Assembly (NCBI RefSeq): GCF_002224225.1
Contig: NZ_NJGG01000001.1
Location: forward strand, 649,374 to 713,373
Direction of reading: 5' to 3'
Length of the DNA: 64,000 nucleotides
Source of the DNA: Polynucleobacter cosmopolitanus
GTDB taxonomy: Bacteria > Pseudomonadota > Gammaproteobacteria > Burkholderiales > Burkholderiaceae
Both the position numbers and the translations under genes were made by a program. Under the pieces are notes generated by a model that saw nothing but the letters and a program-made list of their open reading frames with translations, was not told where the DNA came from and searched no databases. Every line of letters begins with the position of its first letter. The first letter of the stretch is position 1. Below, one piece after another: positions 58,047 to 63,323 of this stretch.

Positions 58047-58559
58047 ATGTCATCCATTCCTAACGCAGAAGACCTTTATCAAACTCTTTTAAATCAATTA
58101 AAAGAACAAAAGAAGATCAGTCCTGATTTTCAATTGGCTGGTTTGGCCAGTGGTGGCGCTTGGGTGGCGGAGCGCTTGGCGAAAGATTTGGGTTTATCTG
58201 CTCATGGCGTGATCAATGTGTCATTCCATCGTGATGACTATGCTGAAAAAGGCATCAAGGCTCTCAATAGCTCTGAAGGTATGTCTACCAAATTACCTTT
58301 CGAGGTAGAGGGTGCTCACATCATCTTGGTCGATGATGTTTTAGATACTGGCAGAACCGTTCGAGCAGCTCTCAATGAGTTATTTGACTATGGGCGTCCA
58401 GCCAAGGTTGATTTGGCTGTTCTTGCAGATCGTCATAGAAGACAGTTACCAGTTGATGCCACTTTCAAGGGGGCTAAGGTCAAAGTGGCTGATGAGCAGA
58501 TTTTGGTTTTAGAGCAATTGGATGATGGGCGCTTTAGCTTTAGCGCTGAGGCTCAATAA
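58047..58559 (+). CDS. pyrR: PyrR, pyrimidine regulator / uracil phosphoribosyltransferase
   Basis: PRT-fold protein of 170 aa with the PRPP loop ILVDDVLDTGRTVRAAL. In Gram-positive bacteria PyrR binds pyr leader mRNA; in proteobacteria its regulatory role is less clear. The frame is open 25 codons upstream into the ATPase gene, but ATG 58047 (MSSIPNAEDLY) has GTGAG in front. No PyrR-type antiterminator hairpin was seen in the 100-bp gap to pyrB. Confidence 0.9.
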   Translation: MSSIPNAEDLYQTLLNQLKEQKKISPDFQLAGLASGGAWVAERLAKDLGLSAHGVINVSFHRDDYAEKGIKALNSSEGMSTKLPFEVEGAHIILVDDVLDTGRTVRAALNELFDYGRPAKVDLAVLADRHRRQLPVDATFKGAKVKVADEQILVLEQLDDGRFSFSAEAQ

Positions 58560-58659: not shown

Positions 58660-59634
58660 ATGCCAAAAACCTCTAAGACTGCCAGCCAACTACAGCTCAA
58701 TAATCAAGGCGAGCTCACTCATTTGTTGACCTTAGAAGGTTTATCTAAAGAACATATTCTTCATATCCTCGATACAGCACAACAATTTGTGGCTGTGAGC
58801 GACTCAGATCGAGAAGTTAAAAAAGTTCCCTTGCTGCGCGGTAAGAATGTTTTCAATCTCTTCTTTGAAAACTCTACCCGTACCAGAACCACTTTTGAAA
58901 TCGCTGCCAAGCGCTTATCAGCTGATGTGGTTAACTTGGATATTCAAACATCCTCAACAGCCAAAGGTGAGACTCTGCTCGATACCATTGATAACTTGGT
59001 GGCGATGCAGGCTGACATTTTTGTGGTGCGTCACAAGACCACGGGTGCTGCTGTGGAGGTTGCTCAACATTTACCACCGCATGTGCATGTGATCAATGCA
59101 GGTGATGGTACCAATCAGCACCCTACGCAAGGTCTACTTGATATGTACACCATGCGGCATTACAAGCAAGACTTCACAAAGATCAAAGTAGCCATCATTG
59201 GTGACATTGTTCATAGTCGTGTGGCCAAATCAAATATTCATGCACTGACAACTTTGGGTTGCCCAGAGATCAGAGCGATTGGTCCTGAAAGTTTATTACC
59301 TAAAGACCTGAACATGATGGGCGTCAAAATCTTCAATAACATCGAAGAAGGTTTAAAAGATGTTGATGTAGTGATGACCCTCCGAATTCAAAAAGAGCGC
59401 ATGGAAGCAGGCCAAGTGCCTGAGGGTGATGCCTTCTTCAAGCAGTGGGGTCTAACTAAAGAAAGACTTCAGTTAGCAAAGCCTGATGCGATTGTGATGC
59501 ACCCAGGCCCAATGAACCGTGAGGTAGAGATTGCCAGTGAAGTGGCCGATGGCCCGCAAGCGGTGATCCTCAAGCAAGTGACGTTTGGTATTGCAGTGCG
59601 CATGGCTGTGATGTCGATTGTGGCGGGGAATTAG
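58660..59634 (+). CDS. pyrB: Aspartate carbamoyltransferase catalytic subunit
   Basis: First committed step of pyrimidine synthesis. [18 protein letters not shown] (carbamoyl phosphate site), [16 protein letters not shown], and [11 protein letters not shown]. 324 aa. No pyrI or pyrC follows; instead there is a terminator and then, 1.4 kb after the source sequence, a decayed copy of an internal piece of this gene. Leader contains a near-perfect 12-bp direct repeat (CCAACATAAGAA / CCAACATAAAAG). Confidence 0.97.
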
Positions 59635-59701
59635 ATTCCTTAATAAGAACGTTAATGAAAATATCGATAAAAACATCGATAGAAACAATTAAGCTGAGAT
59701 T

Positions 59702-59736
59702 AAAAAAGCCAGTTCAAATTTTTGAACTGGCTTTTT
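59702..59736. terminator. Bidirectional terminator after pyrB
   Basis: Perfect 11-bp stem GCCAGTTCAAA / TTTGAACTGGC, minimal TT centre, with A6 before and T5 after. Serves pyrB and the convergent minus-strand gene. Confidence 0.92.
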
Positions 59737-59776
59737 CGTTAATGAGGTTATTAAGACAATGAAATCAGCGAGGCAA

Positions 59777-60142
59777 TTAGCAAGGATCAATTTTGATCGT
59801 GCCAAACGGAAAGTCTGATGGTTGAAATGATATTTTTACTTCATACCCAATCTTGGTGATGGCATGCAGTAATCTTAAAAATTCAACATGCTTGTGATCG
59901 CCATTAAAAAACTGCATTGATTTTTGAGAGTTCAGGCCTAGGCTACCCATGCAAGTTATGGCATTAAGATTCTTCAGTTTGGCTTTTTGAATGAAGAACT
60001 CGTAGGTGCGGTTCTTTGCGGCAATCATTGAAGCAGGTTTTTCATCATGCTCTAATTCAGAAACCAAGGCTGCATTCATCGCAGCTATTTGCTCATGATT
60101 AACACCTGTATCTCTTGGGAAATACTTCATACGAATACCCAT
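59777..60142 (-). CDS. Hypothetical protein with XRE-like C-terminal part, orphan
   Basis: 121 aa with a good start: ATG with AGGAG six bases upstream. The C-terminal half (SLGLNSQKSMQFFNGDHKHV, then FLRLLHAITKIGYEVKISFQ) follows the pattern of small XRE-type antitoxins that end in a G-Y-x-V-x-I strand. The helix-turn-helix itself is poorly conserved, so DNA binding is a guess. No partner toxin is adjacent. It lies in a region with a decayed pyrB piece, so it may be what is left of a lost cassette. Confidence 0.6.
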   Translation of the reverse strand: MGIRMKYFPRDTGVNHEQIAAMNAALVSELEHDEKPASMIAAKNRTYEFFIQKAKLKNLNAITCMGSLGLNSQKSMQFFNGDHKHVEFLRLLHAITKIGYEVKISFQPSDFPFGTIKIDPC

Positions 60143-60246
60143 AATGACTCCTCTTTCTGTTGGTTAATTAGAAGAAAGAGCGTAACAAGTTATTGAGGGT
60201 TTGTATGTCGGCTACTTCGGATTTTGTTGTAGGAAATTTCTTACAG

Positions 60247-60403
60247 GAAATTAAAAAAGTTCCATCGCAGTGCGGTAAGAATGTTTTTAAACTATTTCTT
60301 TGAGTGCTCTATCTTTTCCCTACCATTTTTAAAATTGCTGCAAAGCGCTCATCAGTTGATGTGGTTAACTTAGATCTTCAAACGTCATCAAAAGCCAAGG
60401 GTG
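60247..60403 (+). pseudogene. Degenerate internal fragment of pyrB
   Basis: Aligns without any gap to pyrB 58813-58969 at a constant offset of 1,434 bp. Matching stretches include GCGGTAAGAATGTTTT versus GCGGTAAGAATGTTTT, and GATGTGGTTAACTT in both; in-frame stops break the copy. It begins and ends inside the gene, so it is a partial duplication that has drifted. No insertion sequence is visible at the ends. Confidence 0.88.
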
Positions 60404-60816
60404 CATCATCAAGCTACTGATGGCGTTTAAGTGCAGCACAACCATGACCTAATAAATGTTTTGTGACTGAGTCTGGTTTATGATGGTAACTCGATGATTC
60501 GATACGGAGGACTTGAGCCCATTCCCAAAGGAAAAGCTTCTTTGGGTGGTGAATCAGATACCTAAAATCATTCAAGACAAATCATTGTGATTTCATTTAG
60601 CCTTAGGTGGATATGTTGATAGTTCTAAATGATTTAAGCTTTTGGACTTTCTTTGTGAAATATTATCCAGACATATAATTTCTATAAGTATAATTGAACA
60701 ACGAATACATAAACATGCAGGTGTAGTAGAGAGTTATTCAATCTAAACCTAAAAATTGTTTCGAGTTGCTTTTGCTGTGTGTAAATCGGTTGAAAATTAG
60801 GTGAAAGTTATAATAA
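60404..60816 (+). other. Decayed intergenic stretch with promoter of the polysaccharide locus
   Basis: No intact gene. A short frame near 60479-60567 (YDGNSMIRYGGLEPIPKGKA, then SLGGESDT) looks like the tail of a lost protein. Two TATAAT hexamers at 60674-60679 and 60689-60694 are candidate -10 boxes for the downstream genes; TTTGTG at 60652 is a weak -35 for the first. The leader to the first gene would be about 120-135 nt. No ops/JUMPstart element was seen. Confidence 0.45.
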
Positions 60817-61821
60817 GTGAATGATTCTATTGAAAATAATAGTGGTGCAGTATCTATTTATGCTAATGCCACTGCCACTGCCACTGCCACTGCCACTGAA
60901 AATGACCCCTTAGTAGCGATTTTTTTGTGTACTTATAACGGGGCGCGTTTTTTAGCTGAGCAATTAGACTCCATAAGTTATCAAACTCATCGAAACTGGG
61001 TAGTTATTGCAAGTGATGATGGTTCTACTGATCAAACTTTAGAAATACTACAAAAATATCAAGCCAATTGGCCTGCTGGAAAATTGACCATCAGAAATGG
61101 TCCGCAAAAGGGCTTTTGTAGAAATTTTCAATATTTAACATCAGATGAAAGCATATCAGCTGATTTTTTTGCATTTTGCGATCAAGATGATGTGTGGTTG
61201 CCAGAAAAGTTGACAAGGGCGATTGATGTTTTGAGGGGTATTTCCACTAATATACCTGCTGTTTACGGAGCAAGGACTGTGTTAATTGATGAGGAGAATG
61301 CATTACTGGGTTATTCCCCAATTTTTCCTTTAACCCCCTCCTTTAAAAATGCCTTAGTGCAAAGTATTGCAGGAGGTAACACAATGGTCTTTAACGGTGC
61401 AGCTAAGAAAGTGATTTCGATAGATTCGCGATACGAAATAGTCAGTCATGATTGGTGGGCCTATTTGGTCGTCACCGGGATGGGCGGTAAGTTTATTTAT
61501 GACCCAGTTCCAACAACTTTATATCGTCAACACAAAGCCAATATCATTGGCGAAAAAAAAGGTTTTTTAAGAAATTTTTCACGCTTCAACTCCCTTTTAT
61601 CAGGTAATCTACAAAAATGGATTGAGGGTAGAAATGTAGCGCTTGACTCAATTGCAAATCTATTAACACCCGAAAATCAGTTCACGTTTAAACAGTTTTG
61701 TCAGCTAAGACGGGCTCCGTTCATCGTGCGATTGTGGGGTTTGAAGAAATTGGGAATTCATCGTCAGTGCACAAGTGAGAATATGGCTTTTTATCTTGCT
61801 GTGTCATTTGGTAAAATTTAA
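60817..61821 (+). CDS. Family 2 glycosyltransferase, rhamnosyltransferase-like
   Basis: GT-A fold transferase of 334 aa: AIFLCTYNGARFLAEQLDSI, then SDDGSTDQTLE and FCDQDDVWLPEKL (the DxD-like metal site). Likely adds a sugar to O-antigen or another surface glycan. Start GTG at 60817 with AGGTGAAAG some 11 bases upstream. The N-terminus contains five tandem GCCACT hexamers (residues about 18-27, alternating Thr-Ala) before the first strand. The first gene of a polysaccharide locus, with the exporter genes next. Confidence 0.88.
   Translation: MNDSIENNSGAVSIYANATATATATATENDPLVAIFLCTYNGARFLAEQLDSISYQTHRNWVVIASDDGSTDQTLEILQKYQANWPAGKLTIRNGPQKGFCRNFQYLTSDESISADFFAFCDQDDVWLPEKLTRAIDVLRGISTNIPAVYGARTVLIDEENALLGYSPIFPLTPSFKNALVQSIAGGNTMVFNGAAKKVISIDSRYEIVSHDWWAYLVVTGMGGKFIYDPVPTTLYRQHKANIIGEKKGFLRNFSRFNSLLSGNLQKWIEGRNVALDSIANLLTPENQFTFKQFCQLRRAPFIVRLWGLKKLGIHRQCTSENMAFYLAVSFGKI
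60868..60897 (+). repeat. Hexanucleotide microsatellite (GCCACT)x5
   Basis: Five perfect copies of GCCACT encode alternating Ala-Thr in the glycosyltransferase N-terminus. Gain or loss of units keeps the frame and changes only linker length. Confidence 0.95.
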
Positions 61822-61853: not shown

Positions 61854-62540
61854 GTGAAACAACCCTTAGTCCACCTTTCAAATATTGCAGTTACTCTGTA
61901 CAAGAATTCATCTGATAATTTTTCTTTTAAAAAATTATTAATGACGCAACAATTTTTACCGGAGACGGTTTCTATTTTAAGCGACATCTCCTTAGATATT
62001 TATGAAGGCGATATTTTGGGTATAGAGGGGTCCAATGGGGTTGGAAAAACTACTTTACTTTCAGCGATTGCAGGTATTCTCCCGATTTCTTCAGGAATCC
62101 GTGAGGTACGCGGTAAATGCCTGCCCTTATTGGGTTTAGGGCACGTTTTTCACGGTGATTTAGATATAGAAAAAAATGTGCAGCTCTGGGATACTAGTTT
62201 TAATTCTCAATTTGATCTGAGCTCTAAGTTTGTCGAGGATGTAATTGAAAAGGCTGGCTTAAGTATTGGCAAGACCACCTTGCTGCGCGCTTTATCTTCC
62301 GGCATGAAGTCACGTCTTGCATTTGAATTGGCAATGAGAGACAAGGCTGATATTTTGTTATTGGATGAGGTATTTTCTGTTGGAGATGCTCAATTTCGCG
62401 AGCAATCTACCTCTAAGATCAAGGAAAAACTCAAGACACTAGGATGTGCAGTCATCGTTTCTCATGATCGTAAGGTGTTGGAAGATAACTGCTCGAAAAT
62501 TATTCGAATTAAAGATGCGAGGACAATTGAGATATGTTGA
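61854..62540 (+). CDS. ABC transporter ATPase for polysaccharide export (Wzt/KpsT-like)
   Basis: Energises glycan export. Walker A GSNGVGKTTLL, signature ALSSGMKSRLAFEL, Walker B ADILLLDEVFSVGDAQFRE. 228 aa, so it has no C-terminal carbohydrate-binding domain like that of Wzt O8/O9, nearer the KpsT size. Start is GTG at 61854; no clear Shine-Dalgarno. The permease gene follows after 12 bp. Confidence 0.9.
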   Translation: MKQPLVHLSNIAVTLYKNSSDNFSFKKLLMTQQFLPETVSILSDISLDIYEGDILGIEGSNGVGKTTLLSAIAGILPISSGIREVRGKCLPLLGLGHVFHGDLDIEKNVQLWDTSFNSQFDLSSKFVEDVIEKAGLSIGKTTLLRALSSGMKSRLAFELAMRDKADILLLDEVFSVGDAQFREQSTSKIKEKLKTLGCAVIVSHDRKVLEDNCSKIIRIKDARTIEIC

Positions 62541-62552
62541 TTGATTTCATGA

Positions 62553-63323
62553 ATGAAAATATATATATATTTTTTAAATATGGCACAAGAATTTAATTCC
62601 AAGCAAATTAAGAGTTTTACGCTTTTACTTTTGTCGCTTCAGAAGAAAAACACCATACTCGGTTTTGCAATTAGCTTAGTGCCGATGTTGGTGACAGCTT
62701 TTTCAATTGAGCTTTTTATTGGCAAGATTATTGGTGGTGAAGTCCATGCTGATGGCATGAAGGGCATAAATGCGATCTTTTTTATTTTCTTTAGTAATGC
62801 TATTTTGCAATCAACCGAAGCCTTAAAAAATTACGGTACGATTATTAAGAGCTCGTATTTACACCCAGCAACGGTAATGATTAGTGAGAGCTTGCTGCAA
62901 TACGCATCCTTTATTGTTTCTTTTTTGGTTTTAGCGCTCGCTTTTAATATTTCTTTTGAAAAGAGCGCGCTGCTCATTCTTTTATCCTTATTATTAGCTT
63001 TGTATACCTTAGCTGTAACCAACTGTCTTTTGGTGGTTTCTTCGATCCTAGAAGATTTTGGCCGAATTCTGGGCATCATTTTCCAAATGCTTTTTTGGAT
63101 CTCGCCCATCCTGTATTCGGTCCACATGATCAAGTCAGACCTAGTTTATATCTTTATGGCCAATCCCTTTTATATTTTCTTTGAGCTCATTTCTCTGATT
63201 TTTTCACCCCAATCCTTTGACCACCATCTCTTTTGGTGGGGCTTGGGTTCATCCCTAACTTTTTTGGCTGCACTTTATTTATTATTAATGAATTTGCGAA
63301 AAAAGATTCTGGTTTTTCTGTAG
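62553..63323 (+). CDS. ABC transporter permease for polysaccharide export (Wzm/KpsM-like)
   Basis: ABC-2 type membrane protein with about six helices (for example FIVSFLVLALAFNISF, ILLSLLLALYTLAV). 256 aa from ATG 62553; a second ATG at 62580 (MAQEFNSKQ) may be the true start. The sequence is AT-rich, as is usual for glycan loci. It pairs with the ATPase upstream. Confidence 0.85.
   Translation: MKIYIYFLNMAQEFNSKQIKSFTLLLLSLQKKNTILGFAISLVPMLVTAFSIELFIGKIIGGEVHADGMKGINAIFFIFFSNAILQSTEALKNYGTIIKSSYLHPATVMISESLLQYASFIVSFLVLALAFNISFEKSALLILLSLLLALYTLAVTNCLLVVSSILEDFGRILGIIFQMLFWISPILYSVHMIKSDLVYIFMANPFYIFFELISLIFSPQSFDHHLFWWGLGSSLTFLAALYLLLMNLRKKILVFL

Follow-up and report, generated by a model that had tools for sequence, protein, structure and literature searches.

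Partial duplicates of genes (relics or pseudogenes) occur in bacterial genomes as truncated, frameshifted copies that are free of constraint. The decayed piece of pyrB described here, from the genome of Polynucleobacter cosmopolitanus, resembles them in its truncation, its frameshift and its lost constraint, and differs from them only in its position at the edge of a genomic island. With the replacement flexible genomic islands of aquatic prokaryotes (Lopez-Perez 2014; PMC4033161) the locus shares a cluster for surface structures that occupies one place and has differing genes among relatives. Raised and mostly synonymous divergence is described at the edges of those islands; the present locus gives no more than a hint of raised divergence. 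The island boundaries, in the portion of that article drawn on here, are described as being without clear hallmarks of illegitimate recombination, whereas at the present locus a decayed piece of the flanking gene marks the edge; given that description, plain homologous exchange would not be expected to leave a scar of this kind. In the relevant sections of a study of P. asymbioticus (PMC5644125), the flanks of replacement islands, including that of the cell surface composition (CSC) island, are presented as recombination hotspots, and gene flow of islands is put down mainly to illegitimate recombination. The CSC island belongs to the same genus and is of the same kind as the island considered here, and may or may not be the one beside pyrB, a gene named 0 times in the main text of that study. 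None of the titles or abstract openings listed in a literature search dealt with a pyrB relic at an island edge, and no paper was found that combined pyrB, O-antigen and Polynucleobacter.

The window, i.e. the whole stretch of 64,000 nucleotides that was analyzed, corresponds to G000:C1:649374-713373 of the P. cosmopolitanus genome (G000; 1.78 Mb, 6 contigs), and positions are given within it unless a contig is named; relatives are cited by their genome numbers. The conserved backbone consists of a pyrR-like phosphoribosyltransferase gene (58047-58559, forward strand; Pfam PF00156, E 2.5e-20), the DNA of which is 81-93% identical across six relatives, followed by pyrB and ORF121. The pyrB gene (58660-59634, forward strand) is intact and encodes an aspartate carbamoyltransferase catalytic subunit of 324 aa (PF02729 and PF00185; 403 bits against NCBIfam PRK00856.1, cut-off 263). 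ORF121 (59777-60142, reverse strand), encoding a small hypothetical protein, is the last conserved backbone gene and lies between pyrB and the relic (60247-60403, forward strand), which is non-coding and sits where the backbone ends and the polysaccharide cluster starts. An unplaced stretch with 34% GC (60404-60816) separates the relic from the first gene of the surface polysaccharide island, a family 2 glycosyltransferase (60817-61821, forward strand; PF00535, E 8.4e-17). Two ABC exporter genes follow (61854-63323, forward strand; ATP-binding part 61854-62540, membrane part 62553-63323), a pair that matched PF00005 above the cut-off and PF01061 at 23.3 bits, below the cut-off of 26.9; its best NCBIfam matches are polysaccharide exporter subunits, every one below cut-off. 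The cluster then continues with rmlB, rmlA and galE to heptosyltransferase I at C1:737416.

That 60247-60403 is a relic of pyrB at all is nearly certain. The original prediction of a 157-bp copy of an internal pyrB segment (58813-58969, forward strand) at an offset of 1,434 bp was borne out by repeat search, own-genome search and alignment. The repeat finder gave two ungapped blocks, both spaced 1434 bp, pairing 58813-58862 with 60247-60296 (84%) and 58888-58969 with 60322-60403 (85%), and a search of the own genome with a pyrR-pyrB query returned the relic as a direct-orientation copy of that segment with 80% identity and an E value of 4.1e-33, far from the chance-level similarity that was to have spoken against homology. 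In the global alignment 127 of 156 columns are identical (81.4%), and one inserted and one deleted base cancel each other, so that the copy is not free of indels as had been supposed. At the 1434 offset the identity is 0.18-0.32 in nine 50-bp blocks wholly outside the copy, and its ends are therefore sharp. An unrelated carbamoyltransferase gene, which had been named as a possible better match, did not emerge: none was nearer with the relic as query in 186 genomes or with the pyrR-pyrB query in seven genomes.

Read in the pyrB frame, the relic contains one stop codon (TGA) and a short frameshifted stretch, which spans and removes the STRTRTT stretch that in the pyrB product presumably binds carbamoyl phosphate; judged from its sequence, the relic cannot encode a working enzyme. 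The many substitutions noted at first were thus present (29 relative to the own pyrB), but the several stops came down to this single one and the short frameshift. The substitutions are distributed as 7, 10 and 12 over first, second and third codon positions (52 sites each) and comprise 17 transitions and 12 transversions. Between the own pyrB and that of G177, the same segment shows 12 differences at third positions and 0 at the 104 first and second positions. By these counts the relic has been without constraint and under no purifying selection, and it combines significant homology, a broken frame and the lack of such selection, as a pseudogene does. Its changes at first and second positions (17 of 104) correspond to about 0.18 per site, and half of the pyrB distance between the own genome and G177 corresponds to about 0.14 (third positions) or about 0.22 (fourfold sites) per lineage (Jukes-Cantor, hand arithmetic in both cases). 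The relic thus originated at about the time of the split between the own lineage and G177.

We searched a genus set of 186 Polynucleobacter genomes, own included. The relic as query matched 64 of the 186, with two matches in the own genome and one in every other matching genome; four candidates were scored per genome, and pyrB, found by direct BLAST in G111, G025 and G065, was missed in these three, for which reason the lack of further matches is weak evidence on diverged copies. When pyrR-pyrB was the query and 35 to 40 candidates were scored, two matches were obtained in the own genome and one in each of G068, G177, G106, G111, G029 and G025. Direct comparison of 8 to 16 kb around pyrB in ten relatives revealed no second copy, the relic matching pyrB itself plus three chance matches of 13 to 18 bases. 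The full pyrB query, with two candidates scored per genome, matched 162 of the 186 genomes and gave two matches in six of them, namely the own genome, G068, G118, G142, G173 and G175, of which G118, G173 and G175 are fragmented assemblies. The second match in G068 covers 30 query bases (E 7.5e-4) and was taken as chance; that in G142 corresponds to an almost complete second pyrB, which lies on a different contig in an assembly showing 6% contamination. Neither was accepted as a relic.

Two origins had been proposed for the fragment, an old duplication and another, horizontally imported pyrB allele, and the comparison favors the former. Among 30 pyrB genes, the own one is the most similar to the relic (81.4%), followed by those of G068 (78.8%), G177 (78.2%), G106 (77.6%) and G029 (74.4%), with the rest at 71.8% or less; no nearer foreign allele was thus found among the 29 other congeneric genes. 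The tree of the 30 genes gave the relic no firm position among the near relatives. When the relic was grafted onto a fixed pyrB tree (13 of the 30 pyrB rows plus the relic), three positions close to the base of the own-pyrB branch tied as best, and among the best 14 placements listed the losses were 0.5 log units for a position on or next to G177, 2.0 for G106, 2.7 for G068 and at least 5.5 for G111 or further out. The p-AU values of alternative attachments were 0.24 for G177, 0.29 for G068, 0.11 for G106 and 0.08 for G111, those to G177 and G068 not being rejected. Single sites give mixed signals: at 58911 the relic has G together with the own gene and that of G177, five other relatives having A; the own-specific 58830C and 58953C are absent from the relic; and at 58860 (T) and 58869 (G) it groups, among the four nearest, with G068 alone. 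The placement rests on few sites. Since the own pyrB is nearest, the attachment lies near the base of the own branch and the divergence is about the age of the G177 split, the relic is best explained as an old duplicate of a pyrB from the own or a very near lineage, no sampled foreign allele being nearer. A length of 157 bp is too short to distinguish an import, from a conspecific or an unsampled very close relative, from a local duplication.

These results bear on the idea that a piece of a foreign pyrB allele was imported together with a foreign polysaccharide cluster. The pertinent part of PMC5644125 states that genomic islands are transferred from species to species within the genus, and the adjoining cluster does vary among relatives; against this, the own gene is the closest of all sampled pyrB genes, and just 3 of 80 named loci matched the relic at E 0.01 or better, with 68-70% identity and with two of the three in congeners. 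We consider a foreign allele distinctly improbable as the source, and a distant one is unsupported. The suspicion of horizontal exchange fits the place, as the relic sits on the border of a replacement island.

Inspection of the junction in relatives, as the original prediction had advised, located this edge closely. Downstream of pyrB, G025 matches the window from 59775 to 60236 at 72%, through ORF121 and its upstream region, and the shared backbone then stops just ahead of the relic. The contig of G025 ends about 860 bases after pyrB, too early for a comparison of the island itself. The genes after pyrB were compared in ten relatives, with names given by eye from protein starts. G177 carries manC-like and rml genes, G106 a transporter-like protein gene and sugar-modifying genes, and G068 a truncated ORF, a glycosyltransferase and rml genes, while G029, G121 and G105 carry other genes, those of G121 being left without names. 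The first gene after pyrB is common to G111 (where it follows ORF121), G065 and G052, and G111 and G065 have several more in common; rmlB-like genes recur in G177, G068, G111 and G065. The right flank, heptosyltransferase I and the next gene, which we take to be tex, was found among the ten stretches in G177 only, and other stretches may not reach it. The cluster thus has the same location and a similar function but differing genes among relatives, as in replacement islands, and we read pyrB as the probable left anchor of such an island. In 150-bp windows, the own pyrB is 93-97% identical to those of G106 and G068 over the first two windows, 89-96% over the middle ones and 79-88% from 59335 on; relative to G111 the identity is 85-90% in all windows. 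This gives a hint that the divergence of the own pyrB may rise toward the island, in one gene, with a fall in identity that is not smooth and that is absent in comparison with G111.

We regard it as fairly probable that the relic is a scar from a rearrangement at the edge of the polysaccharide island, followed by neutral decay. Near the time of the split from G177, a pyrB piece of own-lineage origin would have arisen, either as a local copy or from DNA of a conspecific or near relative; as the island edge was rearranged, it would have become attached to the backbone immediately past the region upstream of ORF121 and, free of selection, would then have mutated neutrally. We infer that a change of the island was the cause. 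The piece may have been inserted as a short templated filler, or it may be what trimming left of a longer duplication, and these two possibilities are inseparable because no further remnant of pyrB or ORF121 is detectable beside the relic.

One alternative is that a unit of about 1.4 kb (the pyrB piece plus ORF121) was duplicated in tandem, independently of the island, and that the second copy was lost nearly entirely. The direct orientation, the close spacing and the origin from the own lineage would all agree with it, but four local alignments of 60404-60816 (413 bases) with the neighboring backbone (the rest of pyrB and a second ORF121) did not score above 200 shuffles, and the relic lies just where the backbone shared with G025 ends. 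We therefore consider this explanation unlikely, if less so than the import of a foreign allele. The 413 bases had no DNA match in the 185 other congeners (three candidates scored in each), their four short frame translations had no match in Pfam, and 60150-60830 had none among phage records. A 31-residue frame from the same stretch drew two weak matches, at E 0.011 and 0.057, from 397 other genomes of the family; the second sits in a 472-aa ORF that is glutamyl-tRNA synthetase-like by eye, and was taken as chance.

ORF121 has relatives after pyrB in G025 (75% identical) and G111 (67%) and a partial match of 42 residues in G177. It was matched in 9 of the 186 genomes of the genus, own included, five of these matches being weak (23-32%) and elsewhere in the genus; 24 genomes of other families contained no relative, and Pfam gave no match. 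As the relic borders the upstream side of ORF121, it might be regarded as a retained regulatory element, such as a decoy or an RNA pairing with the mRNA of pyrB. This is hardly credible, since the relic has the same sense as pyrB, showed no second copy in other congeners in the searches with the relic and pyrR-pyrB queries and is changed at all codon positions, and since Rfam gave no match in 59600-60850. One base ahead of the relic lies an imperfect palindrome, TGTAGGAAATTTCTTACA (60228-60245), which in the window has 2 matches (itself, on both strands) compared with 0.07 expected; it may be a break-prone spot or serve ORF121 as an operator. The genome contains 2 occurrences of the degenerate pattern: 60228-60245, upstream of ORF121, and G000:C2:230498-230515, which on contig 2 lies upstream of a small gene, the start of which, by eye, seems to resemble an excisionase-type helix-turn-helix regulator. 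The palindrome may be an operator common to both genes.

The relic is real, dead, old and from the own or a very near lineage, an ordinary finding which by itself means little. Scraps of anchor genes at island edges could act as neutral clocks that date earlier exchanges of surface genes, a use for which one case was found in the genus by searches of limited sensitivity. It is at best a doubtful conjecture that island exchange in the genus is sometimes resolved when a broken end becomes joined to a short copied stretch of the flanking anchor gene, so that datable scraps of pyrB remain and document earlier exchanges of surface polysaccharide genes.

The original prediction had also remarked that pyrC is missing after pyrB. 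The gene is indeed not adjacent, but it is not lost: the own genome has a class II dihydroorotase gene at G000:C1:~237 kb, about 470 kb from pyrB (TIGR00856, 466 bits), and loss of pyrC as part of the event was accordingly rejected. Such separation is usual in the genus. Of 15 genomes searched with the TIGR00857 profile, the own among them, 14 gave a single distant relative, located beside pyrB in 0 of the 14, and G009 gave none at E 1e-10.

Two further features of the window may be mentioned. The hexamer TGCCAC is present in five perfect copies (60867-60898) early in the glycosyltransferase gene that opens the island; they encode an Ala-Thr repeat, the copy number of which could change without loss of frame. 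The intergenic segment 56726-56784, after ruvX, also has opposite-strand matches in G029 and G065, and is therefore probably a conserved hairpin.
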